DNA of 64,000 nt from Nonomuraea lactucae (lineage in GTDB: Bacteria; Actinomycetota; Actinomycetes; Streptosporangiales; Streptosporangiaceae): the NCBI RefSeq assembly GCF_003313395.1, contig NZ_QNFZ01000257.1, positions 16,364 to 80,363 on the forward strand, written 5' to 3'. The translations under genes and the position numbers were made by a program. Under the pieces are notes generated by a model. It worked only from the letters and a program-made list of their open reading frames with translations. It did not search any database and had not been told where the DNA came from. Below are positions 36,649-63,667 of this stretch, in pieces. Every line of letters begins with the position of its first letter. Within the stretch, counting starts at the first letter, position 1.

Positions 36649-36651
36649 GGG

Positions 36652-39185: not shown

Positions 39186-39349
39186 GGGAAGCCTTTCAGA
39201 AAAGGAACGCAGGGAGTGCCGGTGGACGCAACGTGGGCGGCACACTGGCGTGACGCGAGTCTCCTGCCTGACGGCTGCCCCGCACATCCGACGGCTGACG
39301 CTCAGCGCACGCGCGGACACGGAGTCATCGGGTAGCCGACCGGGCAACC

Positions 39350-39366
39350 GCAAATGGGACATTTGC
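39350..39366. promoter_or_regulatory. Inverted repeat GCAAATGGGACATTTGC, with a further half-site
   Basis: Perfect 7-bp arms around GGA in the divergent region between the meta-cleavage operon (start 39185) and the two-component system. A further GCAAATGGGGCA half-site follows at 39383-39394. Candidate binding site for the NarL-type response regulator. Confidence 0.55.
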
Positions 39367-39404
39367 CCTATGCGAAATGGGTGCAAATGGGGCACGCTTC
39401 GAGC

Positions 39405-45444: not shown

Positions 45445-46512
45445 TCATGCCTCCTGTGACGACCGGCGGCGCCGCAGGAGACGGGCGATCGCCGAGGTAC
45501 GGCCCGTATCGCCCCGCCGTACGGCCATCCCGACGGCGAGCAACAGCGCCAGACCGTTGAAGAGGTCGGGAATCCACACCGGGGCCCCGGCCAGTTGCAG
45601 TCCCTTGACCCCGGTCGCCAGGACGTAGACGGCGATGACGGTGCCCCACACGTTGTAGCGGCCGCCGCGGAACTGCGTCGATCCCAGGAACGCCGCGGCG
45701 AACGCGGGAAGCAGATAGCCGGGGCCGATGCTCGGGTCCCCCGTGGCCAGACGGGAGGAGACCAGGGTGCCTGCGGCGGAGGCGATCAGCCCGCAGGCGA
45801 TCAGCGACAGCACGATCGTGGTGGAGGTGCGCACGCCGGCCAGGCGTGCGGCGTCCAGGTTCCCGCCGGTGGCGTAGACCCGGCGGCCGGCAGGGGTGCG
45901 TTCCAGGACGTACCAGACGGCCAGTGCCACGAGCACCAGGAAGTAGACGGGGTAGGTGATGCCGAACAACTGGCCCGTGGCGAGTTCCTGGTAGGCGGCT
46001 CCGAGGTCGAGGATCTGCTGGCCGTCGGAGATCCAAGTCGTGAGCGCCAGCAGCATCGAGGACACGCCCAGGGTCGCGATGAACGAGTCGATCCGGGCGC
46101 GCACGATCAACAGTCCGGTCGCCAGGCCGATGGCGGCGCCAGCGACCAGCGTGAGCGTGACGGTGGCGGGAATCGGCAGGTGCTGGGACAGCAGCCACGC
46201 CGACAGGATCGAACCGACGGCGACCTGGGACCCGATCGCCAGGTTGAAGACACCGGCGGACAGCGGGATGACCAGACTGACCGCGGTCAGTGCCGTGATG
46301 GCCTGGTCGTCCAGCATGGCCTTCCAGGTGTCCCCGTCGAGGAAGGTGCTCGGCACCCAGAGGGAGAACAGCAGGAACAGCGCGGCGAAGATGTAGATGG
46401 CGCTGATGCTGCGGAAGGACAGTGCCTCACGGAGCCGGTGCCGCGGGCGCGCACGTTCGTACGGGTGCTCGGTGAGCGTCTCGGTGTCATCGATCAAGGT
46501 CATGTGGCTCAT
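45445..46512 (-). CDS. ABC importer permease, RbsC type (system 2)
   Basis: 355-aa integral membrane protein with the same landmarks as the permease of system 1: FNLAIGSQVAVGS, FIATLGVSSML, a TPAGRRVYATGGNLDAA loop and VWIPDLFNGLALL near the end. ATG 46512 lies one base after the ATPase stop; ATG 46503 is an alternative. It is the last gene of an operon in the order binding protein, ATPase, permease. The two permeases are clear paralogues, so both importers probably take related ligands. Confidence 0.87.
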   Translation of the reverse strand: MSHMTLIDDTETLTEHPYERARPRHRLREALSFRSISAIYIFAALFLLFSLWVPSTFLDGDTWKAMLDDQAITALTAVSLVIPLSAGVFNLAIGSQVAVGSILSAWLLSQHLPIPATVTLTLVAGAAIGLATGLLIVRARIDSFIATLGVSSMLLALTTWISDGQQILDLGAAYQELATGQLFGITYPVYFLVLVALAVWYVLERTPAGRRVYATGGNLDAARLAGVRTSTTIVLSLIACGLIASAAGTLVSSRLATGDPSIGPGYLLPAFAAAFLGSTQFRGGRYNVWGTVIAVYVLATGVKGLQLAGAPVWIPDLFNGLALLLAVGMAVRRGDTGRTSAIARLLRRRRSSQEA

Positions 46513-46513
46513 C

Positions 46514-48052
46514 TCAATCAAGTGGGTGGCGGGGCGCGGACGTCGTGGAAAGCCCGAGGCTTTCGCTGATCAGGCGGGCCTCGCTGAGCTCGTGGCGACC
46601 GAGTTCGGCACTCACCCTGCCGTCGCGGAGGATGAGGACCCGGTCGCAGAGATCAAGGATTTCCCCCGTGTCCGTGGAGGACACGAGGACACCTGTGCCC
46701 GCCGCCCGGGCTTCGGCGATCAGCTCGTGAATCGCGGCCTTGGCGGCGATGTCGACGCCCTGGGTGGGCTCGTCCAGCAGCAGCACCGCGGGCGCCATGC
46801 GCAGCCATTTGGCCATCACGATCTTCTGCTGGTTGCCACCGGAGAACAGGCGCAGCGGCCGGTCCGGCTGCGGCGGACGCAGCGCGACGCGATCCGTCCA
46901 GGCCCTCGTCTCACCCCGTTCCGCGGCCCGGTCCAGGCGTCCGAACGCGCTGCGCAGCGGACGCAGCCAGGGAAGGGTCAGATTCTCCATCGCCGTCATG
47001 GTCATGACGGCGCCCTGCCGCAACCGGTCGGCGGGCACGTAGGCCAGTCCGTGCCGGATGCTGTGGGCGGGGTCGGCGGCTTTCAGGGCCCGTTCGGCCA
47101 CGGTCACCGAACCGGCGTGCCGGTCCATGGCGCCGAAGAGGGTGGCCGCCAGGTGCTCGCGCCCTGAGCCGAGCAGCCCGCAGACTCCGACGATCTCGCC
47201 CTCGTGGATGTCGAGGTCCACGCCGCGCAGGACGTCGGTGACCAGGCCACGGGCCCGCAGCGCGCGGCGGCCCCGCTCGTCGGCGTGTTCCATCCGGAAC
47301 TCGGCCAGCTCACTTCCCGCGATCAGGGCCACCAGCCTGTCGTGGTCGACCTCGCCCGCCGGGACATCGGCCACGAGCTTTCCGTCCCGGAGGGCGACGA
47401 CGCGGTCGGACAGCCCGAGTACCTCGTCGAGGCGGTGGGAGATGAAGACGACTGCCGCGCCTTCGGCGGCCACCCTGCGCACCGCGTCGAAGAGCAGATC
47501 GGCCTCGGCCGCGCCGAGTGCCGCCGTCGGCTCGTCGAGCACCAGCACGTTGCCCGTCGGTGACCAGTCGCTCATCGCGCGGGCGATGGCCGCGATGGTC
47601 CGCTCGGCCGCCGTGATCCGGGCAATGGGCTCCGTGACGTCGAAATCGCCGCCGAACCGCCGGATCATCCGTTCCGCGGCCTGGCGCTCCTCGCGTGCCT
47701 TGGCCGGCCGGAAGCCCCGCAGCCCGAGCGGACGGGCGATGTCCAGGTTCTCGATCGTCGACAGGCCGGGCACCAGGCCGAGGTCCTGGTGGATGAACCG
47801 TATGTCCCGGTGCTCGATCACGGCGCCCGGGTCGGGCGTATGGATGCCCGCCAGAACCTTGACCAGCGTGGACTTTCCCGAGCCGTTCTGTCCGACGACC
47901 GACACGACCTCACCGGCGTTCACCTCGAAGCCGACGCCGTCCAGGGCTTTGGTCCCGGCGAACGATTTCGACAGCCCGTGAACACGCAGCAGCGGACCCG
48001 CGGCGCCGGGCAGGTCGGCGGTACGGGGAACCTGAGAAGCGGAGTCACCCAT
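46514..48052 (-). CDS. ABC importer ATPase with two nucleotide-binding domains (system 2)
   Basis: 512-aa RbsA/MglA-type ATPase. Walker A GQNGSGKS is at 54-61 in domain 1, with Walker B LVLDEPTAAL and a degenerate signature (ITAAERTIAAI). Domain 2 has GLLGSGREH, LFSGGNQQK and LLLDEPTQGVD. Its start shares one base with the stop of the binding-protein gene (TGATG). Same architecture and the same kind of degenerate sites as system 1. Confidence 0.9.
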   Translation of the reverse strand: MGDSASQVPRTADLPGAAGPLLRVHGLSKSFAGTKALDGVGFEVNAGEVVSVVGQNGSGKSTLVKVLAGIHTPDPGAVIEHRDIRFIHQDLGLVPGLSTIENLDIARPLGLRGFRPAKAREERQAAERMIRRFGGDFDVTEPIARITAAERTIAAIARAMSDWSPTGNVLVLDEPTAALGAAEADLLFDAVRRVAAEGAAVVFISHRLDEVLGLSDRVVALRDGKLVADVPAGEVDHDRLVALIAGSELAEFRMEHADERGRRALRARGLVTDVLRGVDLDIHEGEIVGVCGLLGSGREHLAATLFGAMDRHAGSVTVAERALKAADPAHSIRHGLAYVPADRLRQGAVMTMTAMENLTLPWLRPLRSAFGRLDRAAERGETRAWTDRVALRPPQPDRPLRLFSGGNQQKIVMAKWLRMAPAVLLLDEPTQGVDIAAKAAIHELIAEARAAGTGVLVSSTDTGEILDLCDRVLILRDGRVSAELGRHELSEARLISESLGLSTTSAPRHPLD

Positions 48053-49242
48053 CAGCCGGCCGTTCTCGCCTTGGCCCAGAGCTGGGAGAAGCGCTGCACG
48101 AAGTCCGGGTACGCCGAGAAGCCCTTGCTCACGTCGGCGGGAAGGTCTTCCTTGGTGATCAGCTGCAGGGGCACCTCACCGGCCTTCTGCGCGTCGGTGA
48201 GGGGCTGGTCGGTGGCCAGGCGCACGGCCGCGTCGAGCTGAGTGAAGGCGAGAACACCCGCGTCCAGGCCGACCGCGGCGTCGATGCCGCCATTCTTCAT
48301 GTCCTGCAGGTTGGCCGGCACAGGTGCGGAGCCGGCGATCTTCATCTCGGTGATGCCCGCGCTGCGCAGCGCGGGCGGCAGCCCGGTAGCGGTCTCCAGG
48401 CTGCTGAAGAGGGCGATGTCGGTGTCCGGATGGGCCTGAAGATCGCTCACCACTCGGCTGGGCGCGGTGGTGCCGATCGCCGACAGGGGAATGTCGACGT
48501 AGCGCACCGTGCATCCCGGGCAGTTCTTCTTCAACTCTTCCGTGAACGCCTGCGTCGAGACCTTCGTGAAGTCGAGTTCCGGATTGCCGTACCAGACGAT
48601 GTTGGCGTCGCCGCCTCCGGTGACGATCGCCCAGTCGGCGAGGATCGTGCCCTGCCGCTCGTAGTTGATCGGACCGTTGATGGGCGCGTCGATGCCCTGC
48701 TCCGGGCCTCCCATCACGCCTGCCCCGACGATGGGGATGCCCGCTTGCTTGACCTTCTTGATACTCGCGCCGACCGAGCCGAGGTTGACCGCGGGAAGCA
48801 GCAGCGCTGCCGGGCCGTCGGCGGTGATCGAGGACAGGGCGGTCTGTACACCGTCGGCCGAGTGGCCGCCCTTGACGGTGTCGACCGGCGCTATGCCCAT
48901 GGTCTCGGTCCCCATGCCGTAGAGCTGGGCCAGCAGGGCGCAGAACGGGGAGGCGCACTGCATGAAGGAGATGCGCTGCCCGGCCGCCAGACCTCGGCTC
49001 AGCGGCTGATCGACGGGGAAGGACGTGGGCTTGGAGTAGGTCTCGACGACCTCTTTCGCCGCCGCCAGATTCGCATCGCCCTTCGATGCCTGGGAGCCGC
49101 TGGTGCCATCGCCGTCCGTGGCTGCACAGCTCGCCCCTGTCAGACAGATCGCGACAGCCATAGCCGCCAGGGTCCGAGTCTTCCAGGGGCGCGGGAAGAC
49201 TCTTGACACTCGGGGCATACGAGCATTGCTGGAGATGGACAT
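48052..49242 (-). CDS. ABC importer substrate-binding lipoprotein (system 2)
   Basis: 396-aa solute receptor. An Arg-rich n-region, hydrophobic stretch and lipobox TGASC give a lipid-anchored protein at about Cys39. The mature N-terminal strand carries QCASPFCAL with Cys96 and Cys101, the same CAxPxCAL pattern as in system 1 (Cys75/Cys80). ATG 49242 has AAGAGGC upstream; a longer extension is unsupported. First gene of the importer operon. The ligand is unknown, but the shared cysteine motif suggests the two receptors belong to one uncommon subfamily. Confidence 0.85.
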   Translation of the reverse strand: MSISSNARMPRVSRVFPRPWKTRTLAAMAVAICLTGASCAATDGDGTSGSQASKGDANLAAAKEVVETYSKPTSFPVDQPLSRGLAAGQRISFMQCASPFCALLAQLYGMGTETMGIAPVDTVKGGHSADGVQTALSSITADGPAALLLPAVNLGSVGASIKKVKQAGIPIVGAGVMGGPEQGIDAPINGPINYERQGTILADWAIVTGGGDANIVWYGNPELDFTKVSTQAFTEELKKNCPGCTVRYVDIPLSAIGTTAPSRVVSDLQAHPDTDIALFSSLETATGLPPALRSAGITEMKIAGSAPVPANLQDMKNGGIDAAVGLDAGVLAFTQLDAAVRLATDQPLTDAQKAGEVPLQLITKEDLPADVSKGFSAYPDFVQRFSQLWAKARTAG

Positions 49243-49479
49243 GAGTGCCTCTTCTCGCCGGTGGCTACGGTCCGCGGCGGGAACAGCCGCCGATGCTCCA
49301 AGCAAGCCGTCCGGAGCCGCCGGCCGCGTCGTCGTCCCTGCCGACGGGGTGTACGGTCAGCTTGGCTGCACCGGCGAGCCACGGCATCGTCCACTCGACG
49401 CGCCTGAAACGGCTGTTTCGGTCAAAGGACCCGCAATACCCGGCAGAACGCACTACGACATTGGTCGCATCGGGAAGCA

Positions 49480-51987: not shown

Positions 51988-52902
51988 ATGGAGATCATGG
52001 CCGCCCTGAGCAGGACAGTGACCGACCGTACTGGTGGTGTGCCCGAGTGCGGAGATCTGGAGCGGCTCTTCGGGCGACGCTTCGCCCTGATCGGCATGAT
52101 CCACCTGCTGCCGCTCCCCGGTTCGCCAAGATTCACCCCGAAGCGCGGGATGGACGCGGTGATCCGACAAGCGACGGACGAGGCCCGAGTTCTCGTCGAT
52201 GCCGGCTTCGACGGGCTGATCGTCGAGAACGGCTGGGACATCCCCTTTCTCAAGCCCGATGACATCGGCCCTGAGACTCCGGCGGCGATGGCTGTCGCCG
52301 CGGCCGAGGTGGCTCGCACCGTGGGAGTCCCGCTGGGAATCAACTGCCTGGCGAACGCCGTTGACAGGTCGCTTGCCGTCGCCGCGGCGGCGGGAGCCCA
52401 GTTCGTGCGCTCCAACCAGTGGGTCAACGCCTACGTGGCGAACGAGGGCCTCGTCGAGGGGCGCGCCGGCATGATGACGCGCTACCGGCACGCGATCGGC
52501 GCCGACCACGTCACGGTGTGGGCCGACGTCCAGGTCAAGCTCGGGGCACACGCGATCACGGCGGACCGCTCACTGACCGACCAGGCGAGGGACGCCGCGT
52601 GGTTCGACGCTGATGCCCTCATCGTCACCGGCACCCGGCTCGGTGATGCGCCCACGACGGCCCATCTGCAGACGATTCGTGCGGCCACGGGCCTGCCTCT
52701 GGTAGCCGGATCCGGCGTGCGGATCGACAACCTGGCCGACATCGTTCCGCACACCGACGGCGCTATCGTCGGCAGCTCGATCAAATCCGGTGGCGTCTGG
52801 CGTGGCCACATTGACCGGGACGTGTGCGAGCGGCTGTGTGCCGCGCGGGACGTTCTGGAGAGACAGGCCGAGGAAGCCGCGTCCCAGGACGGATCGAGAT
52901 GA
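51988..52902 (+). CDS. BtpA/SgcQ family TIM-barrel protein
   Basis: 304-aa protein of the BtpA/SgcQ family, a phosphate-binding TIM barrel related in fold to TrpA and other indole/ribosyl-phosphate enzymes. Diagnostic segments are LIGMIHLLPLPGSPRFTP near the N-terminus, GFDGLIVENGWDIPF, VGVPLGINCLANAV, and a C-terminal phosphate site GSGVRIDNL...GAIVGSSIKSGG. The start may be 51988 or 51997; no strong ribosome site is seen. Family function is poorly known (photosystem I biogenesis factor in cyanobacteria, sugar-phosphate operons in enterics). It is the first gene of the unusual cluster up to 60.9 kb. Confidence 0.82.
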   Translation: MEIMAALSRTVTDRTGGVPECGDLERLFGRRFALIGMIHLLPLPGSPRFTPKRGMDAVIRQATDEARVLVDAGFDGLIVENGWDIPFLKPDDIGPETPAAMAVAAAEVARTVGVPLGINCLANAVDRSLAVAAAAGAQFVRSNQWVNAYVANEGLVEGRAGMMTRYRHAIGADHVTVWADVQVKLGAHAITADRSLTDQARDAAWFDADALIVTGTRLGDAPTTAHLQTIRAATGLPLVAGSGVRIDNLADIVPHTDGAIVGSSIKSGGVWRGHIDRDVCERLCAARDVLERQAEEAASQDGSR

Positions 52903-52959
52903 CCGACGGGGCAACCACTCGGCTCCGGCCGCGCTGTGTCTCGTACCTCCAGCCCTGCG

Positions 52960-53215
52960 TTTAGCTCTGGGGTGCCCTGAGCTTTCCGACAGCTGGTTTG
53001 TGGTCAGTTCAAAGCCGCTTGTTGTCGTTTGAGGTGGTCCGTCCTCGTAGGCCTGGCGAGGATTGCAGTAACCGAGGGTGAGTGCGGGCTTCGGTGGTCG
53101 TACCAGAATTCGATGTATCTGATGACGTCATGACGGGCGCGTTCGCGGTGTTCTACAAGGTGGCGAAGAACGACTCGGCGAGTGAGCTATGGAAACAGGT
53201 TCCGGTCCGGTCGAC
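52960..53215 (-). pseudogene. IS3-family transposase C-terminal fragment, frameshifted
   Basis: Leftward frames read SLAESFFATL, a stop, then HRERARHDVIRYIEFWYDHR, then after another shift LGYCNPRQAYEDGP. Together they form the conserved C-terminus of IS3-type OrfB (LAESFFATLK...IxxYIExxYNxxRxHSxLGY). Two frame changes and a stop show it is dead. It interrupts the space between the BtpA/SgcQ gene and the P450 block. Confidence 0.75.
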
Positions 53216-53442
53216 CGATTGACGTAGGGCGTGTCGGCGAAGGGGGGCGGCGAACTTCTTCGGGGTTTAGTTGCCCTGCGTGCTCTTTCCGGTACGCGCC
53301 ACTTCTTCTCCGGCGAGCTGGATAAACACCTTCCGGACATCCCCATCGTAGTGTGGGTGCTGTCCGGAAATCCTCATAGCATCCCACTCCCGTATCGAGT
53401 GACTCGGCAGGTTGCGAAAGTTGTTGCGGGCCTCCTATATTG

Positions 53443-53491
53443 ACCGGGTCGTCTTATATGAACCGGGTCGTCTTATATGAACCGTGTCGTC
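53443..53491. repeat. Tandem 19-bp direct repeats ACCGGGTCGTCTTATATGA
   Basis: Two exact 19-bp copies (53443-53461, 53462-53480) and a partial third (53481-53491, one mismatch), preceded by a degenerate TATATTG. The repeats lie 53 bp before the 36-codon ORF and 215 bp before the P450, in an AT-rich patch, and may be an activator-binding array for the cluster. Confidence 0.7.
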
Positions 53492-53543
53492 GCGGAAGCC
53501 ATGGGCCGGCGTTCGTACTGGAGACGACCTGGAAGGGGGGATC

Positions 53544-53654
53544 GTGCGAGCCACTTTCGCGGCTGAGTACAACAGGGCTAAAGATGGCTCGACCTTCAGC
53601 ACCGAGCTCAAGGAAGCTGCTCCCCCCACTACGTGGGACCGCCCGAGCCGCTGA
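53544..53654 (+). CDS. Small ORF, 36 aa, upstream of P450 (possible precursor or leader peptide)
   Basis: GTG 53544 is preceded at good spacing by GGAAGGGGGG. The 36-residue product is hydrophilic, with a charged N-terminal helix (MRATFAAEYNRAKDG), a TELKEAAPP stretch and a C-terminal TTWDRPSR holding the only Trp. There is no hydrophobic signal. The P450 gene begins 51 bp after its stop with its own GAGGAG site. Short peptides directly before a P450 can be RiPP precursors, but no protease, radical-SAM or lanthipeptide enzyme is present, so a leader or unrelated small protein is equally possible. Confidence 0.4.
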   Translation: MRATFAAEYNRAKDGSTFSTELKEAAPPTTWDRPSR

Positions 53655-53705
53655 CGGGGGCGAGCCGGTTCGCCGGGGATGCCTTGAAGTGTTGAGGAGC
53701 AGATC

Positions 53706-55190
53706 ATGAGGCCATTCCTGTACGTCTCGACGGCAGCTGCCGGCGTCGCCTCTCTCGCATTCGCCGCGAGGGTGGCGCGAACGGTTCTCGACCGCAGGTA
53801 CTACGAGAAGCAGGGCGTCACTTTCAGTAGGACCTACCCGTTCATCGGTTCCGAAACGGATGTGTCCGGACTCATTGATCGGAACAAGACGCGGGACTAC
53901 CTGTACCTGGACCAGCCGGCCACGGACTTCGTCGGCAGTATTCGCGGGTTCGACATCCAGCTGTATGCGGTGAACAGGCAGACGACCGAGATCCTGGTCA
54001 GCCCGGCGATCACCGGAAAGTACATCGATCGGGACACGCCCGCATTATATTCTTTCGGGCAGCTGTCGCCGTCGGCAATGACCTTCCAGAAGATCACCAC
54101 AGAGCACTTCGGTGACCGGAAGCGCAACCTCGGAAAGGGCTTCGACCAAGAACGGATCTCCGAGGTCTCCAACCGGCGAGCAGCCGAGTTGTGCGGCGAG
54201 TTCGACGAGGACGCTCCGCTCGATCTGAAGCGCATCGCGGGTGACTATACCCGCGATGTCATGGGAGAGTTCGTCTGGGGACAGGACGCGATGAGGCTGG
54301 CGGTGTCCTACAAGGATCGCGACGGCGGCTTATCGAAGGTGCCCTTCATGTTCGCGTTGAACGAGACGTTCACGCGCCTGCGGTTCTACTCCAACCGATT
54401 CTGGAACCGAGTCTACTTCCCGATGGCGACCTGGCCGATCACCCAGGAAGCGAGGCGTCTGCAGTACAACATCAAACAGCTGCAGGAGCATCTGGCGAAC
54501 GTGTTGCAGGGAACCCCCGGGGCTGGGACGGTGTGGGAGCAGGTCGCCACGGGCAATGGGAAGCTCGGTATCCCGATCGAGATCACGCGTGACGACCTTC
54601 TGACGGCCTCCATCGCCGGTCTGGACACGGTCCAGAACACCATCCTCGCCACCTTGTGGTACGTCCTCCTCCCGGAGAACGTGAAGTGGCGCGAGGCAAT
54701 CGCGTCCAGCGGTGGCGAGCGGAAGGATGAGTTGGTCGAGGCGTGTGTCAGCGAAACACTTCGCCTCAGCCCCCCTGGATCCGTCATCAACAATAAGGTC
54801 ATCGATGACCTCGACATGGACGTCGAGGGGCGGAAGTACCTGCTGAAGAAGGGTACCCGCGTGATGCCCAACATCCACGCGCTTCACGCTCAGTACGGAG
54901 ACGCCTTCCAACCCGAGCGGTTCTTGCTGACGGAGAAGGGCGCCGAGCCTTACGTGATGCCCTTCGGCAAGGGGCGACGCAGCTGTCCTGGTCGCAATCT
55001 CGGCATGGTCATGGCGAAGAACTTCGTCAGTCAGTTCATCACCGCTCACCCGGGCGCCCGGATCACCAACACCGCGGACAAGGACATCCACTTCAACAAC
55101 CTCTCACAGTCCCAGCTCATGGTCGTGATCGGTCCCGGTGCGGCACAGGGCTTCGCGACCGCACGCTCCTGCCCCGTCCTGTCCTCCTAG
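53706..55190 (+). CDS. Cytochrome P450 with N-terminal membrane anchor
   Basis: 494-aa P450, longer than typical bacterial class I enzymes. Residues about 4-22 (LYVSTAAAGVASLAFAARV) form a hydrophobic anchor. The heme loop FGKGRRSCPGRNLG places the thiolate at Cys427; the K-helix is SETLR. The I-helix region, TASIAGLDTVQNTILATLW, lacks the usual acidic-Thr pair, which may alter oxygen activation. ATG 53706 has GAGGAG upstream. The Rieske protein at 57020 could be an electron donor (inference). Confidence 0.85.
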   Translation: MRPFLYVSTAAAGVASLAFAARVARTVLDRRYYEKQGVTFSRTYPFIGSETDVSGLIDRNKTRDYLYLDQPATDFVGSIRGFDIQLYAVNRQTTEILVSPAITGKYIDRDTPALYSFGQLSPSAMTFQKITTEHFGDRKRNLGKGFDQERISEVSNRRAAELCGEFDEDAPLDLKRIAGDYTRDVMGEFVWGQDAMRLAVSYKDRDGGLSKVPFMFALNETFTRLRFYSNRFWNRVYFPMATWPITQEARRLQYNIKQLQEHLANVLQGTPGAGTVWEQVATGNGKLGIPIEITRDDLLTASIAGLDTVQNTILATLWYVLLPENVKWREAIASSGGERKDELVEACVSETLRLSPPGSVINNKVIDDLDMDVEGRKYLLKKGTRVMPNIHALHAQYGDAFQPERFLLTEKGAEPYVMPFGKGRRSCPGRNLGMVMAKNFVSQFITAHPGARITNTADKDIHFNNLSQSQLMVVIGPGAAQGFATARSCPVLSS

Positions 55191-55219
55191 CCGTGGCGCT
55201 TCAGAACGAGGAGGTCGGC

Positions 55220-56230
55220 ATGACGTGGGAGACCGGGCACCCGTGGCTGCCCTCAGTCGCGGTGTCCCGATGCGTCGGCGACGGCACCGGCTACGAGCAG
55301 CCCAGGCTGACGGCGAACGAGGTGGGGAGCCTGGCCGAGTTCAGCGCGGACGCGATCCAGTTCGGGTTCTCGGTCTTCGAAGGGATGCGCGCCTACATCG
55401 CGGATCCGACCTTCCTCGTCTTCAGAGCGCACGACCACCACGAGAGATTGAGGGCCTCGTGTGCGGCGCTTGCGCTGCCCTGCCCGGCGTACGACGTGTT
55501 CATCGAGGCCATCGAACAAGCAGTGCGAGCCAACTGGAACGGTAGGGCGACGCGCCTGTATGTCAGGCCCGTCGTGTTCGCGGCGGGCGGCGATGTCATG
55601 CCGCGGCAGAGCCACAAGTACGTCTTCGTGGTCCTCGTGAAGAGGTTCGACCCCGTCCTGGAGAGCATGAGTGTTCTCGTCGAGGAGAGCATGCCGCGAA
55701 CGGTTCCGATGTTCGCAGCCGTCAAAACCGCCGGTAACTACACGAGCGCCGCACTGGCGATGCAGAACGCGCGCAAGGCGGGATGCGACACGATCCTGTG
55801 GCTCAACGGCGACGGCCACCTTCAGGAATGTACGACCATGAACGTCTTCTTGTGTCTCGACGGTCAGATCGTCACTCCGAAGCTCGGCTCGATCCTGCCC
55901 GGCGTCACCCGCAGGACTGTCCTGGACCTGCTGGCCGGGATGGGGGAACGGGTGGTCGAACGGGACATCCGGATTTCGGAGGTGTCCGACGCGCTCGCAC
56001 GGGAGGAGGGGCTGAGCATGTTCACGACATCCACCGCGCTCGGTATCCATAAGGTGGCGCGCTTGCGACTGGGCTCCGGCGACCACGTGCTCGAGGGGAA
56101 GGTGCCGAGCACGTGGAGCCGCGTGGAGGAGCAGTACTCCTTGGTGACGGAGCGGTTCACAGAAGCAGATGGCTCATATTCGGCGATCATGTCGCGTTCT
56201 CATCGCGGCGATGTGAGCCGTCCGAGCTGA
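55220..56230 (+). CDS. Class IV aminotransferase (branched-chain aminotransferase-like)
   Basis: 336-aa PLP fold-type IV enzyme. The Schiff-base lysine is Lys169 in AAVKTAGNYTSA, the signature CTTMNVFLCLDGQIVTPKLG is close to that of BCAT/D-amino acid transaminases, and PGVTRRTVLDL follows. The phosphate and substrate loop FSVFEGMRAY is at about 50-59. ATG 55220 has GAGGAGG directly upstream, which decides against the longer GTG start at 55193. In a cluster with trpBA it may make or remove the amino group of an unusual amino acid (inference). Confidence 0.86.
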   Translation: MTWETGHPWLPSVAVSRCVGDGTGYEQPRLTANEVGSLAEFSADAIQFGFSVFEGMRAYIADPTFLVFRAHDHHERLRASCAALALPCPAYDVFIEAIEQAVRANWNGRATRLYVRPVVFAAGGDVMPRQSHKYVFVVLVKRFDPVLESMSVLVEESMPRTVPMFAAVKTAGNYTSAALAMQNARKAGCDTILWLNGDGHLQECTTMNVFLCLDGQIVTPKLGSILPGVTRRTVLDLLAGMGERVVERDIRISEVSDALAREEGLSMFTTSTALGIHKVARLRLGSGDHVLEGKVPSTWSRVEEQYSLVTERFTEADGSYSAIMSRSHRGDVSRPS

Positions 56231-56283
56231 GCCGGTCAGAGTGCCGGCTCCGATCGTACGTTCCCGAAACGGATTGGATCGAA

Positions 56284-56868
56284 GTGATAGTTCTTTTGGC
56301 GCAGGGGCCGATGCACACGCGGTTCGGCGATTTCACCGAGTACTTGTTCTACGACGGCCAGAGCGAATCGATCGCCATCGTCAAGGGAGAGGTTTCGGGG
56401 AAAGAAGGAGTGCTCTGCAGGGTACATTCGCACTGCACAACCGCGCATGTCTTCAACGGCATTGAATGTGATTGCCGAGAACAGATGGCCATGGCGCAGC
56501 AGAAGGTCGAGCAGGACGGTACCGGCATCATCATCTGGCTGGACCAAGACGGGAAGGGCAACGGCCGCATGGCCGAGCTGCTGACAGCCAATCTCAGAGC
56601 CGAGGGAGTTGCGCAGACCGAGGCTTACGCACAGCTGGGATTCAAGCGGGACGCACGGTCGTTCGATCGGGCGGCGGCCATTCTGAAGTACTTCAACCTG
56701 GGCTCCATCACGCTGATGTCCAACAACCCCGAGAAGGCCAGCGGGTTGAGCGAGTGCGGCATCGCGGTCTGTGGCACGGTGAATCTGGCTGTCGTCCCGG
56801 AGAATCCTCATCTGCACAAGACGTATCGAGACAAGGTCCAGTACCAGAACCACTCGATCGAGCTCTAA
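56284..56868 (+). CDS. GTP cyclohydrolase II-like protein with altered active site
   Basis: 194-aa RibA-fold protein. The zinc ligands of GTP cyclohydrolase II are kept: Cys51, Cys62 and Cys64 (VHSHC, ECDC), as are the counterparts of E. coli Asp126 and Arg128 (RDARSF). The residue matching the catalytic Tyr105 of the E. coli enzyme is Ala102, and the conserved YHRQEGRNIGL loop reads WLDQDGKGNGRM. The protein is therefore unlikely to be a normal riboflavin enzyme. The start is GTG 56284 or ATG 56311; neither has a strong ribosome site. No other rib gene is nearby. It may act on a different nucleotide or stop at an intermediate. Confidence 0.78.
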   Translation: MIVLLAQGPMHTRFGDFTEYLFYDGQSESIAIVKGEVSGKEGVLCRVHSHCTTAHVFNGIECDCREQMAMAQQKVEQDGTGIIIWLDQDGKGNGRMAELLTANLRAEGVAQTEAYAQLGFKRDARSFDRAAAILKYFNLGSITLMSNNPEKASGLSECGIAVCGTVNLAVVPENPHLHKTYRDKVQYQNHSIEL

Positions 56869-57019
56869 GGTGACTCGGCGTCGATGTCCCGGTGCCGCGC
56901 GACCGGGCTGTCGGAGGCGGCCGTGCGCGTGAGTCGGGGCGGCGGGGAGGATGCCCTGGTTCGGCCCGGGAGCGCAGCGTGCGCTGGTCTCGGTGACAGG
57001 AGTCGTCAGGAGAGAGAGC

Positions 57020-57379
57020 ATGGCCGCTGATCTGATCAAAGTCTGTGAGATGTCGGACTTGTCCACGCACAAGGGCTACCGGGTCACGTCCGTGTCACCG
57101 CCCCTTGCGATCTTCCTCACCGAGGACGGCGCGGTACACGTGCTCGACGACACCTGCACCCATCAGGACGCGGCGTTGTCGGACGGGTGGGTCGATGACT
57201 GCATCGTCGAGTGCCCGTTGCACATGTCCCGGTTCGATCTGCGCACCGGAGCGGTGGACGCTCCGCCCGCGGAGCTGCCCGTGCGGGTGCACACGGCCGA
57301 GGTCGTCAACGGTGAGGTCTGGGTGACGCTGTCGAAGGAAGCCCCGAACCTGCCTCCGGGTGTCAGGCATCGTTCGTAG
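57020..57379 (+). CDS. Rieske-type [2Fe-2S] ferredoxin
   Basis: 119-aa soluble Rieske protein. Ligands are Cys46 and His48 (CTH) and Cys65 and His68 (CPLH), with the usual 16-residue loop between them. ATG 57020 is preceded by AGGAGAGAG. It resembles the ferredoxin components of aromatic dioxygenases and the small subunit of nitrite reductases, but no oxygenase alpha subunit is nearby. It may donate electrons to the membrane-anchored P450 or to an enzyme encoded elsewhere. Its 3' end is followed by the convergent permease gene. Confidence 0.85.
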   Translation: MAADLIKVCEMSDLSTHKGYRVTSVSPPLAIFLTEDGAVHVLDDTCTHQDAALSDGWVDDCIVECPLHMSRFDLRTGAVDAPPAELPVRVHTAEVVNGEVWVTLSKEAPNLPPGVRHRS

Positions 57380-57487
57380 CGGCTGGACACCGTCCACGAC
57401 AGCGGCCGGGTCTCGATCATCACGTTGTCCCGCATCGTCCACTGCTTCCGTCGGTGTTCCTCGCGGTGTGCCAGATCTGGTCGGAGG

Positions 57488-58705
57488 TCAGGCTGATTCG
57501 ACTGATTCATCCGCGGCGGGCGTCGCTTCAGAGCTCCACGGTGGTGCTGTGAATGCGAGACATACCATGAGGCCGGCGAGCAGCGCCCAGAAGGCCGAGC
57601 TGACCCCCGCCAGAGTAGTGCCTGACGCGGCGACCACGAAGGTGACAGTCGCTGCCGTTCGTTCCGCTGGCGAGAGGGCGCCGCCGGATCCGGCGATCGC
57701 AGCGGTCAGCGCATAGCTCAGCGTCCCGAGGAGACCGAGACCGGCCACGGTACCGACGACTTCCGGTGGAGCAACGGCGAGAAAGCTGGTGAGTGCCGTG
57801 GTCCCTGCGGCGATTCCCAGATAGGTGACGCCGAAGGCCTGGGATGCCATCCACCGCCGTCCGGGGTCCGCGTGGGCCTGCGGCGACGCCGGCAGGGCCG
57901 CACTGATCGCGGCAAGGTTGACGGCGTGCCCGCCGAACGGTGCGGCGAGGACACTGCCGAGACCGGTGACCCCCATGGCCGCGCGCCATGGAACTTGGTA
58001 GCCGAAGGAACTCATGATCGCGACGCCGGGCACATTTTGTGCGGCCATCGTCACGACATACAGCGGGAGGGCGATACCGGCGATTGCAGGCCAGGTCAGT
58101 TGGGGTGCCGTCAGGGTGAGTTGCGGCAACCAGGGCCCGTTCAGGCCACCACTACGAACGGCGAGGAAGCCGACGACAATCACAGTCGCTCCGAAAGCGG
58201 CTGGGATCGCCCACCGCGGAGCGGTCACGACAGTAATCAGCCAGGTAAAGAGGATCGGGGCGACCTCCCAGGGGTGCGAGGTGAGTGCCTTCACGGGGAC
58301 CAAGCAAAGTTCAAGAAGGACACCGGCGAGCATCGCCTGCGCGATCGACGCCGGGATCGCCGCTACCAAGGCGCCGAGACGTGGCCAGAAGCCGGTAAGG
58401 GCCACCAGGCCGCCTGCAACCAGGAACGCGCCCACTGCTGCCTGCCATCCGCCGGCCACGTGGCCCGCGCTCGCCAGCACGGCAGCACCTGGCGTCGACC
58501 AGGCAAGGGTGATCGGCATGCGACAGCGCCGGCTCAACCACAGGGTACCGAGCCCAAGCGAGGCGCAGAGCGCGACCAGGCCCGAGGTTGCTTCGGCCGG
58601 GCTGGCGCCAACCGCGCGCAAGCCCGCCAGGACTACCGCGAAAGTGCTTGTATAGCCGATAAAAGCAATCGCGACCCCGGCCACGACAGGCTGTCCTCGT
58701 TCCAC
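57488..58705 (-). CDS. BenE-type (benzoate/H+ symporter family) permease
   Basis: 405-aa membrane protein with about twelve transmembrane segments. The start AIAFIGYTSTFAVVLAGL and the segments STPGAAVLAS, PAFGATVI-like and AAPFGGHAVNLAAISAA are typical of BenE. The start is GTG 58705, divergent from the small peptide and trpB. The family takes up benzoate and related aromatic acids, but members in biosynthetic clusters could also move an aromatic product or precursor. Only membrane transporter inside the 52-61 kb cluster. Confidence 0.85.
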   Translation of the reverse strand: MERGQPVVAGVAIAFIGYTSTFAVVLAGLRAVGASPAEATSGLVALCASLGLGTLWLSRRCRMPITLAWSTPGAAVLASAGHVAGGWQAAVGAFLVAGGLVALTGFWPRLGALVAAIPASIAQAMLAGVLLELCLVPVKALTSHPWEVAPILFTWLITVVTAPRWAIPAAFGATVIVVGFLAVRSGGLNGPWLPQLTLTAPQLTWPAIAGIALPLYVVTMAAQNVPGVAIMSSFGYQVPWRAAMGVTGLGSVLAAPFGGHAVNLAAISAALPASPQAHADPGRRWMASQAFGVTYLGIAAGTTALTSFLAVAPPEVVGTVAGLGLLGTLSYALTAAIAGSGGALSPAERTAATVTFVVAASGTTLAGVSSAFWALLAGLMVCLAFTAPPWSSEATPAADESVESA

Positions 58706-58782
58706 CTGCGGAACACTAACTGATAAATCCGCATTAGGGGACCCTGTTTGCTGGTGTCAGAGACGTGAAGGGATTGACGGGC

Positions 58783-58881
58783 ATGGTCGGAAAACGTATC
58801 CGCAGGGCACGCGGCCTTCCGCTCGGCGCACTTGCCGTGCTCCTCGCCGTGGCCAGTCTTCTCACTTCTGTAATAGTCTGA
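58783..58881 (+). CDS. Small basic membrane peptide (32 aa)
   Basis: ATG 58783 is preceded by GAAGGG about 10 nt upstream. The product begins with a basic segment ([11 protein letters not shown]) and continues into one hydrophobic stretch ([17 protein letters not shown]), so it should be a single-span membrane peptide. It ends one base before the trpB GTG. It has no Trp and so is not a classical trp attenuator leader. It could couple translation to trpB, act as a small membrane regulator, or be chance. Confidence 0.4.
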
Positions 58882-58882
58882 C

Positions 58883-60082
58883 GTGGTGTCTTCACATATC
58901 ACCGGCCCCTACTTCGGGGAATATGGCGGCCAGTTCGTACCGCAGATCCTCGTCGAGCCCCTCCGCCAACTGGAGAAATGTTTCGTCGAGGCGTGGTCCG
59001 ATGAGACATTCAGGCAGGAGTACCTCTCTCTCCTGAAGGAGTACGCCGGGCGGCCGACGTCGCTGACCCGGGTGCGTAATCTGACCGAGGGCACCAGGAC
59101 CCGGCTGTACCTCAAGCGGGAGGACCTGCTGCACGGCGGCGCGCACAAGACCAACCAGGTGATCGGCCAGGCGCTGCTCACCAAGCGGATGGGCAAGTCC
59201 TCGATCATTGTCGAGACCGGCGCCGGACAGCACGGCGTGGCGTCCGCGATCGCGGCGGCGCTGTTCGGGCTGAGGTGCCGAATCTACATGGGCCGCATCG
59301 ATACCGAGCGGCAGAGGCCCAATGTGGAGCGGATGCGGTTGCTCGGTGCCGAGGTGATCCCGGTCGACTCGGGGTCGCGCACGTTGAAGGATGCGTGCAA
59401 CGAGGCGCTGCGCGACTGGTCGGGGTCGTACGAGGACAGTCACTACGTGCTCGGCACCGCGGCCGGGCCGCACCCGTTCCCCACCATCGTGCGGGAGTTC
59501 CAGCGGGTGATCGGCGATGAGGCCCGGGCGCAGATCCTCGAGCGCGAGGGCCGCCTGCCCGACCGGGTGGTCGCCTGTGTCGGTGGCGGCTCCAACGCGA
59601 TCGGCGTGTTCACCGCGTTCGTGCCGGATGAGTCTGTGGAACTGGTGGCGGTCGAGCCCGGTGGGCTCGGGGTCGACACTGACAAGCACGGCGCGTCCAT
59701 CGGGAAGGGCGAGGCGGGTGTCTTCTTCGGCATGCGCTCGAAGCTGTTGTCCGACCCCGATGGGCAGATCTTCGAGTCGCACTCGATCTCGGCCGGTCTG
59801 GACTTCCCATCGGTCGGCCCTGAGCTGTCCTACCTCGTCGACTCGGGCAGGGTGCGCTGCGAGGCGGCCACCGACGACGAGGCGGTCGGCGCGTTCGTGG
59901 AGCTGACCAAGGGCGAGGGCATCATCCCGGCGCTGGAGAGCTCGCACGCGCTGACGTTCGCGCTCAAGGAGATCCGTGCCGAGCCCGATAGGGAGCAGGT
60001 GGTCGTGGTCAACCTCTCAGGTCGAGGCGACAAGGATCTCGCCACCGTGACGTCGTATCTCCGGCAGAGGGGGGAGCTCTGA
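58883..60082 (+). CDS. trpB: Tryptophan synthase beta subunit, enteric type
   Basis: 399-aa PLP enzyme that joins indole (or an analogue) to serine. The Schiff-base lysine is Lys89 in HGGAHKTNQ, the catalytic glutamate is Glu111 (VETGAGQHG), the PLP phosphate loop is GGGSNAIG, and NLSGRGDKD is near the C-terminus. The HGGAHKTNQ form is that of E. coli, whereas actinobacterial housekeeping TrpB has HTGSHKINN, so this copy has a different ancestry. Start GTG 58883 or 58886. It shares one base with trpA (TGATG). No trpC, D, E or F gene is near, which argues for a specialised role. Confidence 0.88.
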
Positions 60083-60903
60083 TGAGCCGCTACGCCGCGA
60101 TGTTCGAGTCGGCCAGGGCGGAGCGCAGTGCGCCGGTGATCGCGTGGTCGGTCGTCGGTGACCCGACTCCGGAGACGTGGCTGGACACCGTCGACGCACT
60201 CGTGTCGGCGGGGGCGGCGGCGCTGGAGCTGTCGATCGCGTTCTCGGACCCGTCTGCAGACGGGCCGGTCAACCAGGGCGCCTACTCCCGGGTGCTCGGC
60301 AAGGTGGACAAGAATCACGCGGTCGCGCTGATCAAACAGGTGCGTGAGCGCTACCCCGATCTGCCAATCGGGCTGATGACCTATGCGAACCTGGTCTACA
60401 TCCCCTCCCCGGAGGCGTTCTACGCCGCGTGCGCTGCGGCAGGCGTGGACTCGGTGCTGGTCGCGGACGTGCCGGTGCACGAGGTCGAGATCTTCAGCGA
60501 CAGGGCGGCGGCTCACGACATCGAGATGGTGCTCATCGCCCCGCCGAACGCGCAGGAGCCCGAGCTCAAGGCGATCGCCGAGCAGTCGCAGGGGTTCGTC
60601 TACCTGGTGTCCCGCGCCGGCGTCACCGGCACCGACCGTGAGGCCCAGTCGCCGCTGAAGTCAGTGATCGCGACGCTGAAGAAGTACGGCGCCCCGCCCA
60701 CCGTCCTCGGCTTCGGCATCTCCCGAGCCGAGCACGTCCGCAACGCGATCGCCGCAGGGGCGGACGGCGTCGTGGTCGGGTCCGCGTTCGCGAAGCTGGT
60801 CGCCGAGCACCTCGACGACCCGGCCGCACTCACTGCGGCGTCGACCGGGCTGGTCACCAACCTGCGCTCAGGCGCCGGCATTGAGCGCGCCGCACCGCGG
60901 TGA
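60082..60903 (+). CDS. trpA: Tryptophan synthase alpha subunit, enteric type
   Basis: 273-aa TIM barrel that releases indole from indole-3-glycerol phosphate. The catalytic Glu49 (ALELSIAFSDP) and Asp60 (SADGP) match E. coli numbering exactly; YLVSRAGVTG and the phosphate loops GFGISRAEHV and VGSAFAKL are intact. Segments such as LMTYANLVY, GVDSVLVADVPV and APPNA are E. coli-like rather than actinobacterial. ATG 60082 overlaps the trpB stop, so an alpha-beta complex is likely. It may supply indole or an analogue, or be a resistant copy protecting against a Trp-synthase inhibitor (inference). Confidence 0.87.
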   Translation: MSRYAAMFESARAERSAPVIAWSVVGDPTPETWLDTVDALVSAGAAALELSIAFSDPSADGPVNQGAYSRVLGKVDKNHAVALIKQVRERYPDLPIGLMTYANLVYIPSPEAFYAACAAAGVDSVLVADVPVHEVEIFSDRAAAHDIEMVLIAPPNAQEPELKAIAEQSQGFVYLVSRAGVTGTDREAQSPLKSVIATLKKYGAPPTVLGFGISRAEHVRNAIAAGADGVVVGSAFAKLVAEHLDDPAALTAASTGLVTNLRSGAGIERAAPR

Positions 60904-61009: not shown

Positions 61010-63667
61010 TCAGCGGCCGGCTGCGCTGTCAGGCAGGCCGGTGCACAGGGCGTCCTTCACGGGAGGCTCGTTGGTGTCCAGCCGGCCGCAGCGCACGACG
61101 GGACGCGCGTGACCCCACTGCGCCTGCTCCACTCTCATGATGGCGATCGCCTTGTCGGTGGGAGTGTGCTGGTCTGCGGCGCTGAAGTTCACCACACCGC
61201 TGGATCCCGCCCACGAGGTGTCCCCTGACGTGCGGGCCAGCCTGTAGAGGATGTCGCCCCGGCTGGGCAGCCGCTCGTCCTCCTGCCCTCCTGCGGCGCT
61301 GGCGGCCCGGTAGGCGGCGTTGGCCGCCCGGTAGACCACGTCGGCCGCGTCGTAGGTGAGGATGAGGTTGTCGTCGGAGGCCTTGGGGTGGGCGCCGTTC
61401 AGCAGCTTGCCGACGAACGCGGTGGCCTTGGCACGCTGCCACAACGCCCGGTGCCCCAACGCCATGTGGTAGACCTCGACCTGCTTCATGTTCGCGATCT
61501 CGTCGCCGTGGTCGCTCACCACCTTGACGACGTCGTCGCCCGCGATCACCTTCACCTCACCGCAGGCCTGGCCCTCGATCGCCGTGAGGAACGGACGGAA
61601 CTCGGACGCGCGTCCCGCGTAGACCAGGACGTCCGGCTCGAGCTTGCACGCCTTCTCCGCGGCCGTGGAGATCCCGCCCTCGTCGACGGTGTACGGAATC
61701 CGGCCCGTGACCTTGACATGCTCCTTCTCCAGCGCCTTCTCGAAGTCGTCCGCCAGGTTGTTGGTGTACTCGTCGGCGGGCGACTGGTCCTCGACGATGG
61801 CCGCGGACGGTCCGTCCAAGGCCGGCAGGAGGGTCCGCCGGGCGAACCGGGCGCCCAATGTCGCCTGGCGGAAGTTCGTCGGACCCACCTGGAAGTAGTA
61901 GGGGGATGGGTCGCCAGGATCGCCGGTCTTGGCCGGGTTCTTGATGTAGCCGAGCCCGTCCGCGGTCGCCGTGCTCGCCACCATCGGGATCTTCGCCAGG
62001 TGCAGTTCCGCGATCGCGTCGCTGACGCCCGTCACGCTGCGCGGCAGGCCCACGACGCCCATCACGTGCGGGTCCTGCTCCGCCATCTCGGTGATGAGCT
62101 GTGCCGTCCTGCGCCCCTGGCCGAAGTTGTCGCCCGCGTTCGCGATCAGCACACGTAACCGGGGAGTGCTCGAGACCGTCCGCTGGTACTCCTCGAGCGC
62201 CATGAGCTCGGAGACCGCTGCCGCGAGCCTGGTGTCGTCCGGCGCGGTCTTCCTGATCGAGAACTCGCCGAACAGGACCAGGCTGACGTACCGTCCGGAG
62301 TCCGTGGCATAGACGTTGTTCGCGTCGATCTTCTTGATCAGCCCCTTCACGTCACCGTCGAACAGGTCATCGGGCGTGGCCCGGGTGGCATTGACGATGC
62401 CGACGCACTCGCCGCCGATCCGCTCGGCCCACGGCAGGCCACCGCAGTGCCCGTCCCTGTCGCGCTGGATCCAGTAGACCAGCGCGAGCGGGACGACCAG
62501 GAGCAGAGCCATCGCCGCCCAGTAGCCCATGGCCCGCGCACGGTGCGGCGACGCCGGATCGTCAGGCGGGTTCGCGGGCAGGGCGGTGGCCTCGATGTTC
62601 AGCCGCAGGTCGGGGACGCCCAACCGGGCCGTGTTCTGCCACTGCCGGACCGCCTGCTCGAGATTGCGGAGGTCCTCCGGCGTCGCCGCGCCGTGCGCGG
62701 GCGGGCCATCCGGCACGGCCGCCAGCACGACCATCGGGGCGAACAACCCGGTCTTCTTGGTGATCTCCTCCAACAGCCGCAGGAACCGCGCGTTGGTCCC
62801 GCTGGGATCGGTGACCTGGAGGACCAGGAGGGAATACTGGCCCCTGCCCCAGCTCGGCCACGGAATGATCCACTTCTTGTACGCCTCGTGCAGGTCCTGC
62901 ATCAGCGCGTGGACCAGCAACTCATCGATCTCCTCGTCCCCTGCGGCCGCCAGGCGCAGCGCGTACTGCGGCAGCCGCTCGAAAGGCCTTCTCCTCAGTT
63001 TCGGTTTCTTGGCGAACCAGCCGGTGAAGAGCGACCCCCGGATCGACAGAACGCCCTGCGCGGCGGTGCCGGCCAGGGCCACCAGGGCGCCGAGCAGCCA
63101 GGGAATGACACCGACGAGGTCGGAGGCGCCACCGGCCCACCAGACGGCCAGGGTGCCGACCGGCACCCAGGTCGTGGCGGCCCGTGTCAGGAAGTCGGCC
63201 GAGGTCTTGACGCCTTGGTCGCCGCCGCGTTTGCCCCTCCGCCATTCCTTGAGACGCTTCTTGAACGCCTGGTAGTCCGTGTGCGACTGCGGGTTGGGCG
63301 GCGCGGCGCCCTTCGGCCTCTCCCTCGCCCACAGCACGAACTGGGCGAGCGGGAAGCGCGGCGGCGGCAGGAGCGACCCGCCCACCGGCTTGCCCAGCCG
63401 GCCGTCTTCACCCGCCAGCGACTTCACCAGGCCCAGGACCGACGTGTGCTCGCCGTCCGTGACGCGGGCATAGGGCACGGCGTCCTCGAACGGCTTGGCG
63501 AGCATGTCGACCGCGGCGAGCGCCTGCCGGCCGGTCACCAGCACGGTCGGCAGCGGCGGATCCGCCCGCCAGAACCTGTGCCGGCCAATCAACATCTCGA
63601 TGACGCTGCGCAGATCGGCCACCTGGATGGCCCTCCAGCCGGTGCCCACCCCGATTCGGTGAACCAA
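61010..63667 (-). CDS. Membrane protein with C-terminal type-1 periplasmic-binding (receptor ligand-binding) domain
   Basis: 885-aa protein. The N-terminal third is cytosolic, with possible relics of a P-loop region and a segment LLVLQVTDPSG; two hydrophobic segments lie at about 175-210 and another at about 385-405 (AAMALLLVVPLALVYWI). From about residue 450 to the end is a LivJ-like binding domain (GVVGLPRSVTG, IPMVASTATADG, YYFQVGPTNFRQ, SAAIVEDQSPADEYTNN). Such proteins are common in actinomycetes, with unknown ligands. The start TTG 63667 is doubtful: an in-frame stop lies just upstream, and a neighbouring frame reads EPLLLIIGSPNRG, which would join on if one G near 63643 were extra. Confidence 0.65.
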   Translation of the reverse strand: MVHRIGVGTGWRAIQVADLRSVIEMLIGRHRFWRADPPLPTVLVTGRQALAAVDMLAKPFEDAVPYARVTDGEHTSVLGLVKSLAGEDGRLGKPVGGSLLPPPRFPLAQFVLWARERPKGAAPPNPQSHTDYQAFKKRLKEWRRGKRGGDQGVKTSADFLTRAATTWVPVGTLAVWWAGGASDLVGVIPWLLGALVALAGTAAQGVLSIRGSLFTGWFAKKPKLRRRPFERLPQYALRLAAAGDEEIDELLVHALMQDLHEAYKKWIIPWPSWGRGQYSLLVLQVTDPSGTNARFLRLLEEITKKTGLFAPMVVLAAVPDGPPAHGAATPEDLRNLEQAVRQWQNTARLGVPDLRLNIEATALPANPPDDPASPHRARAMGYWAAMALLLVVPLALVYWIQRDRDGHCGGLPWAERIGGECVGIVNATRATPDDLFDGDVKGLIKKIDANNVYATDSGRYVSLVLFGEFSIRKTAPDDTRLAAAVSELMALEEYQRTVSSTPRLRVLIANAGDNFGQGRRTAQLITEMAEQDPHVMGVVGLPRSVTGVSDAIAELHLAKIPMVASTATADGLGYIKNPAKTGDPGDPSPYYFQVGPTNFRQATLGARFARRTLLPALDGPSAAIVEDQSPADEYTNNLADDFEKALEKEHVKVTGRIPYTVDEGGISTAAEKACKLEPDVLVYAGRASEFRPFLTAIEGQACGEVKVIAGDDVVKVVSDHGDEIANMKQVEVYHMALGHRALWQRAKATAFVGKLLNGAHPKASDDNLILTYDAADVVYRAANAAYRAASAAGGQEDERLPSRGDILYRLARTSGDTSWAGSSGVVNFSAADQHTPTDKAIAIMRVEQAQWGHARPVVRCGRLDTNEPPVKDALCTGLPDSAAGR

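Follow-up and report, generated by a model that had tools for sequence, protein, structure and literature searches.

A rare, conserved operon for a P450, an aminotransferase, a GTP cyclohydrolase II-like protein and a Rieske ferredoxin in Nonomuraea lactucae, with BtpA, BenE and a linked second trpBA pair

The window analysed here is a stretch of 64,000 nucleotides from a contig (NZ_QNFZ01000257.1) of the actinomycete Nonomuraea lactucae. Its positions 51,988 to 60,903 carry a group of genes that an earlier note had proposed as an undescribed biosynthetic cluster. Pfam and NCBIfam profile searches of the open reading frames (ORFs) of the window confirm every protein family named in that note, at the position given for it. 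The features of this region are as follows.

51988..52902, plus strand: BtpA/SgcQ-family barrel protein (PF03437, 2.8e-64; TIGR00259, 207.7 bits against a cut-off of 153.4)
53412..53441, plus strand: promoter of the P450 operon, TTGCGA-N18-TATATT; the motif is also found before the P450 gene in three other loci (L034, L035, L037) and before the aminotransferase gene in G053
53443..53491, plus strand: 19-base tandem repeat of 2.6 copies directly after the -10 box, found in the window sequence with Tandem Repeats Finder; a possible operator
53706..55190, plus strand: cytochrome P450 with an N-terminal anchor (PF00067, 2.2e-22, matched span residues 295-445)
55220..56230 (ORF from 55193), plus strand: class IV aminotransferase (AT4), similar to branched-chain amino acid aminotransferases (BCAT) (PF01063, 2.1e-36, 126.3 bits)
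56284..56868, plus strand: variant of GTP cyclohydrolase II (GCHII), here called GCH2, with Tyr105 replaced by Ala (PF00925, 3.4e-40; probable start)
57020..57379 (ORF from 56951), plus strand: Rieske ferredoxin (PF00355, 8.4e-17)
57488..58705, minus strand: BenE-type permease (PF03594, 1.2e-76)
58883..60082, plus strand: TrpB, second copy, of gamma-proteobacterial type (TIGR00263, 592.9 bits against a cut-off of 392.45)
60082..60903, plus strand: TrpA with an altered alpha-site region (TIGR00262, 267.5 bits against a cut-off of 102.35)

Judged from the sequence and from alignments, the true starts are likely to be ATG 55220 for AT4, GTG 56284 for GCH2 and ATG 57020 for the Rieske ferredoxin, and with its start at GTG 56284 GCH2 would not overlap AT4. 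BtpA and BenE are neighbours of the operon and are not on one transcript with it, because the P450 promoter comes after the BtpA gene and BenE is encoded on the opposite strand. The G+C content between 52 and 60 kb is 63-66%, compared to 65-72% in the remaining 2-kb steps of the window.

A scan of the GTDB species genomes for GCH2, which used exact patterns of eight residues that distant relatives can escape, identified four further loci, in Herbidospora yilanensis (L034), H. galbida (L035), the Nocardiopsaceae bacterium YIM 96095 (L036) and Planotetraspora sp. A-T 1434 (L037). The order BtpA-P450-AT4-GCH2-Rieske, followed by BenE in the reverse orientation, is collinear in the window, in both Herbidospora species and in Planotetraspora. 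The YIM 96095 cluster contains only P450-AT4-GCH2-Rieske: BtpA, BenE and the promoter are missing from it. In these four loci the proteins are 72-81% (P450), 67-78% (AT4), 77-81% (GCH2) and 78-81% (Rieske) identical to those of the window, and BenE, where present, keeps its position and orientation and is 82% identical. Because the genes are collinear in three other loci and their core is found in a fourth, their adjacency is beyond chance, and the gene set is a real, conserved and rare unit, which supports this part of the earlier note.

The rarity of the unit was estimated from samples of genomes, not from all genomes (n = 198, 394, 296, 55, 342, 198 and 149 in the individual surveys). GCH2 of this type is found in four of 198 relatives, with scores of at least 352 bits compared to 116 bits for the next best match, and among 296 genomes of the phylum it occurs in the genome of the window alone. 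The P450 type is present in three of 394 genomes of the class at E<=1e-40 (three candidates scored per genome, among the matches listed). Other relatives of this P450, in nine further genomes of 148, match from residue 242 onward only, with 30-37% identity. The AT4 type occurs in six of 342 family genomes, which include all four GCH2-type genomes of the survey of 198 relatives. Spread of the unit on plasmids was rejected, as PLSDB contains no match to the P450 at 1e-20 and none to AT4 at 1e-30.

In Herbidospora the edges of the shared block are sharp. The two Herbidospora loci share a single block of 10,665 alignment columns with 92% identity, and the rest of their 20.7 kb is unlike. The block begins shortly ahead of BtpA and stops at the end of a gene for a periplasmic binding protein; its further content, read in H. 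galbida, is a sugar-type ATP-binding cassette (ABC) ATPase together with a permease and an FGGY kinase. The gene content past BenE thus varies, with trpBA in the window and sugar import plus a kinase in Herbidospora. The window has a sugar ABC system of its own upstream of the unit (45445-49305), which was considered as a member and rejected: its ATPase and the Herbidospora one are just 36-37% identical, and no match to its binding protein was found in the Herbidospora loci.

The operon is preceded by a common promoter. The motif TTGC[AG]A-N17/18-TATATT stands before the P450 gene in the window (at 53412), in both Herbidospora loci and in Planotetraspora, and before AT4 in G053, a congener described below; it is absent before the YIM 96095 operon. 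The motif occurs 18 times in 637 kb of sequence from 109 partly overlapping sources, and each occurrence is a copy of one of the five sites. When the upstream 500 bases of the five sites were shuffled with their dinucleotides preserved, the motif appeared in 1, 0, 0, 0 and 0 of 2000 shuffles. Upstream of the YIM 96095 cluster, at 5555-7204 of that locus, there is an ORF of 549 residues with a periplasmic-binding-like part (Phosphonate-bd/NMT1) and an AraC-type DNA-binding end; it is possibly a ligand-sensing regulator, at a locus which has no conserved promoter.

Two small ORFs that the earlier note had counted among the parts did not hold up. An ORF of 36 codons (53267-53377, minus strand), which we match to the wording of the note ourselves, and an ORF of 38 codons for a membrane peptide (58765-58881) are both present as mechanical ORFs. 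By eye, six-frame translations of the four other loci contain no shared ORF in the gaps between BtpA and P450 or before P450, and a small ORF as the precursor of a peptide modified by the P450 was rejected. The promoter is what these pre-P450 gaps do have in common (except in YIM 96095), and the window and Herbidospora also share a block that directly precedes the P450 start codon. The 38-codon ORF before trpB matches the DNA of G053 with its last part alone. No RNA element above threshold was found between 46 and 64 kb.

The P450 carries the acid-Thr motif AGLDT (AGLDTV), the ExxR motif (ETLR) and the haem-Cys motif FGKGRRSCPG, and the Rieske protein carries CTH...CPLH; because of these motifs both proteins look functional. 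AT4 belongs to the fold-type IV family, and the lysine of its AAVK motif aligns with the lysine of mycobacterial BCAT which we take to bind pyridoxal phosphate. AT4 is called BCAT-like only, because it does not reach the cut-off of the BCAT equivalog (PRK13357, 164 bits compared to 307).

The GCH2 copies of the five loci were compared with E. coli RibA and 26 sampled homologues. Cys54, Cys65 and Cys67 (E. coli numbering), presumably the zinc-binding cysteines of RibA, are kept in all five copies and likewise in all 26 others. Asp126 and Arg128, which we take to be the catalytic pair, are also kept in all five, as are Arg49, His51 and Lys154. Position 105 is Ala in 5/5 copies, which confirms the altered GCHII-like protein of the earlier note; in the others it is Tyr (20), His (4) or Met (2). 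The tyrosine at this position is presumably required for removal of the formyl group. The positions that have changed are 53, 64, 68, 88, 92, 94, 96, 101, 105 and 118, and these include the base-pocket region. The window protein passes PF00925 (137.8 bits compared to 23.3) and falls below the curated cut-off of TIGR00505 (127.4 compared to 205.85). In Streptomyces GCHII homologues of the SCO6655 type, Tyr105 is likewise replaced, and its loss reportedly halts the enzyme at the formylated product. Two Streptomyces-like loci among the sampled sequences (L014, L018) have Met at 105, whereas the copies described here have Ala together with the further pocket changes. Four other GCHII frames (L009, L017, L029, L030) combine His at 105 with Ala at 118. 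The His105 and Met105 homologues may represent further GCHII subtypes.

The window BtpA is the sole BtpA found in its genome. It scores above the TIGR00259 cut-off and misses the photosystem equivalog NF045918 (177.6 compared to 400). The presence of BtpA alone says little, because 20 of 149 relatives have one above the cut-off; its adjacency to the P450 operon in four loci (the window, L034, L035 and L037) is informative. An AlphaFold2 model built from four sequences, with a mean predicted local distance difference test score of 70 and a predicted template modelling (TM) score of 0.73, is nearest to the HisF and TrpA folds, with other phosphate-binding barrels below them (TM ~0.5, best E 6e-9). 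The one BtpA match in the YIM 96095 genome is 51% identical; it lies on a different contig from the cluster, and its neighbours are a PfkB kinase and a sugar-type ABC importer. At 4786-9433 of L092, a BtpA gene stands beside a PfkB kinase, a periplasmic binding protein, an ABC ATPase and a permease. This operon is likely to serve the import of a sugar or nucleoside, and it may show the ordinary role of BtpA. The window BtpA belongs to the same family as the BtpA/SgcQ proteins that have sugar ABC genes and a kinase as neighbours, as in Herbidospora and in YIM 96095; what differs here is that BtpA adjoins the P450-AT4-GCH2-Rieske operon.

Besides the TrpB of the trpBA pair, the window genome holds another elsewhere, 56% identical, and a remoter third, and a duplicate of a housekeeping gene within a cluster is the pattern of a self-resistance copy. 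TrpB aligns with Salmonella TrpB over residues 6-399 (602.8 bits), catalytic motifs included. TrpA is 40-48% identical to plasmid-borne copies of gamma-proteobacterial and Deinococcus taxa, and at E<=1e-50 it has a counterpart in only one other genome among 198 of the phylum. By its sequence, trpBA is a second, foreign-type pair resembling the gamma-proteobacterial and Deinococcus copies; unlike them, it is a second copy in its genome, lies behind the operon and has an altered TrpA alpha-site region. TrpA keeps Glu49 and Asp60, which we take to be the hallmark residues of the family. At positions 51, 53 and 64 the window and G053 have Ser, Ala and Asn, whereas Gly, Pro and Ile stand there in all 19 TrpA of the comparison; at position 22 they have Trp where the 16 readable sequences of the 19 have Phe or Tyr. 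All four positions presumably lie at the alpha site. Positions 58, 100 and 101 are not counted among the changes, since other TrpA either vary there or agree with the window copy. Behind trpA, on the minus strand (61010-63667), is a protein of 885 residues with a C-terminal periplasmic-binding-like domain that is barely above the Pfam cut-off.

The window-type TrpB was found in none of the four other host species (seven genome entries), where the best TrpB is at most 58% identical. Of the two partners whose co-occurrence with GCH2 the earlier note proposed to check, BtpA accompanies GCH2 in three other loci and this TrpB in none of them; overall, the interpretation in the note is partly supported. 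A close copy of TrpB (93%) was found in the congener G053 alone, among 55 genomes of the genus. There the order is promoter-AT4-trpB-trpA. No P450, GCH2, Rieske, BenE or BtpA gene was found within 15.4 kb around this locus; the whole genome has no GCH2-type match and no BtpA, and P450, Rieske and BenE were sought at the locus only. The remnants at the junctions follow the order of the window. The scar of the GCH2 start region was equalled by one of 1000 shuffles and that of the BenE 5'-end by none of 1000, and the stretch before trpB and the promoter were each equalled by 0/1000; a control piece of BenE was matched as well by 842/1000. The middle of the deleted stretch has left no remnant, as expected. 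The simplest account of the G053 locus would be deletions that spared AT4 and trpBA. G053 AT4 (within the range of 67-82% identity to the window spanned by AT4 of all five other loci) is open from its ATG, and a TGA in the matching region lies before this ATG. The dN/dS ratios between the window and G053 (nonsynonymous to synonymous substitution rates, Nei-Gojobori) are 0.31 for AT4, 0.13 for TrpB and 0.31 for TrpA, and the reduced locus is therefore still under purifying selection. By eye, three adjacent genes upstream of it (4255-6139 of L051) have starts like those of an ArsR-type regulator, an arsenite transporter and an arsenate reductase, and an MFS-like gene lies between these and AT4, nearer AT4.

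The trpBA pair is not part of the core, because a TrpB of the window type was found in none of the four other host species. It is also no chance neighbour, because G053 keeps AT4-trpB-trpA behind the operon promoter, and for this reason the view of trpBA as a mere neighbour was rejected. Of the products suggested in the earlier note, G053 disfavours a heterocyclic amino acid made by TrpBA: that AT4 and TrpBA can apparently be useful without GCH2 argues for protection, or for supply of tryptophan or indolepyruvate, over TrpBA acting on a heterocycle derived from GCH2.

By combining these results, it is possible to propose a tentative scheme, which we prefer while giving it less than an even chance: the operon, small and non-modular, would make an amine or amino acid derived from a purine, and AT4 and TrpBA would be able to act alone, most likely in protection. 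P450, AT4, GCH2 and Rieske would be expressed from the one conserved promoter, with BtpA standing in front and BenE facing the operon. GCH2 would act on a purine nucleotide by opening its imidazole ring and, because Tyr105 is missing, would go no further than a formamidopyrimidine-type ribosylamine phosphate. BtpA, as a barrel of the ribose-phosphate type, might then isomerise, cleave or remove the ribosyl phosphate. The P450 would oxidise the intermediate with electrons delivered by the Rieske ferredoxin, AT4 would transaminate it to the amine or amino acid, and BenE could move the substrate or the product. In the genus of the window, trpBA would be an acquired addition, with changes in the alpha-site region. 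Together with AT4 it may be protective, TrpBA providing a tryptophan synthase that is not inhibited by the product (or by that of a rival) and AT4 detoxifying the product.

Several observations weigh against this scheme. Protection by TrpBA is not general, because the four other host species lack trpBA of the window type. In all full loci AT4 is one of the operon genes, a position as compatible with biosynthesis as with protection. YIM 96095 has the core without BtpA in the cluster, and without BenE and the promoter too. The further changes in GCH2 may mean another substrate, and GTP is possibly no longer used. In G053 the loss of the P450 is only inferred, because no P450 remnant was found there.

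The same genes can be read in other ways. AT4 and TrpBA might themselves be biosynthetic, TrpBA supplying tryptophan or an analogue that AT4 interconverts with the corresponding 3-pyruvate, while P450, Rieske and GCH2, the last with a substrate other than GTP, elaborate a tryptophan-derived product. This is possible but somewhat doubtful: G053 has kept AT4-trpB-trpA as a group under a single promoter, the TrpB catalytic motifs align with those of Salmonella and the base-pocket region of GCH2 has changed, but the block has no further gene recognisable as tryptophan-modifying, and the four other hosts lack the window-type TrpB, though their housekeeping tryptophan could serve. The main idea of the earlier note, in which GCH2 and BtpA make a heterocycle-glycerol phosphate, the altered TrpA releases the heterocycle and TrpB joins it to serine, appears quite improbable. 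The alpha-site region has indeed changed (both copies carry Asn64 and Trp22), and BtpA and TrpA are of one fold class, but G053 keeps TrpBA and AT4 in a genome that has neither a GCH2-type gene nor BtpA, and the core exists in four other hosts that lack trpBA of this type.

That the unit serves catabolism or detoxification is improbable. In this reading an aromatic or heterocyclic acid would enter through BenE and be oxidised by P450 and Rieske, AT4 would remove nitrogen, GCH2 would open the ring, and BtpA with the Herbidospora importer and kinase would handle an attached sugar. BenE and ferredoxins like HcaC/AndAb are typical of aromatic breakdown, and sugar-type ABC importers accompany the FGGY kinase in the Herbidospora block and the PfkB kinase beside the YIM 96095 BtpA; however, no ring-cleaving dioxygenase or coenzyme A ligase was recognised in the block, and an aminotransferase and an extra trpBA fit breakdown poorly. 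That the genes are unrelated and adjacent by chance is very improbable. The flanks do differ among the hosts and the trpBA type is missing from four of them, but an order kept in other genera, one promoter, a sharp-edged block common to two Herbidospora species and AT4-trpBA kept in G053 speak against it, and for P450-AT4-GCH2-Rieske it is already contradicted.

Elsewhere in the window, at 29521-41599, there are another P450 (29521-30732), short-chain dehydrogenases/reductases, a glyoxalase-fold protein, an FAD monooxygenase and an FAA hydrolase; this looks like a separate region for aromatic degradation.

No report on the set of P450, AT4, GCH2 and Rieske with BtpA, BenE and trpBA was found among the matches listed in a full-text search of the open-licence literature, which agrees with the earlier note and is weak evidence of absence. 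GCHII homologues are known from small specialised-metabolite clusters, those of toxoflavin/fervenulin and pseudoiodinine (PMC9911603), and in this respect the operon resembles them. The pseudoiodinine (psd) genes encode methyltransferases, a sulphatase-modifying-factor protein, a WD-40 protein and a RibD-type protein (PMC9911603). Unlike them, the operon has no methyltransferase, RibD-type or sulphatase-modifying-factor partner, and has instead P450, AT4, Rieske, BtpA and an Ala105 GCH2. The 8-azaguanine (ptn) pathway likewise opens the imidazole ring of the guanine of GTP for an antimetabolite, but its cyclohydrolase, PtnA, is GCH-I-like and the new nitrogen comes from nitric oxide; the 8-azaguanine route was rejected on account of this GCH-I-like enzyme (PMC7109123).

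The operon would be a compact orphan pathway that is easy to express, and in its conserved block no synthase for polyketides or peptides was recognised. Rule-based cluster finders tend to overlook pathways of this kind. An unlikely but more specific possibility is that the product is a purine-derived antimetabolite of a new class that hits the alpha site of tryptophan synthase. It would be made by the GCHII variant and BtpA (as a heterocycle or glycerol-phosphate mimic), P450/Rieske and the aminotransferase, and the altered trpBA would be the resistance, kept by a relative that has lost other members of the unit. If true, it would provide a natural tryptophan synthase inhibitor with its own resistance gene, and an enzymatic role for the BtpA family. 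The preferred scheme, too, could give a BtpA/SgcQ protein a biochemical role in specialised metabolism and GCHII chemistry a new outlet, possibly with a natural tryptophan synthase inhibitor as the product. The deletion locus of G053 makes the role of AT4-trpBA directly testable.

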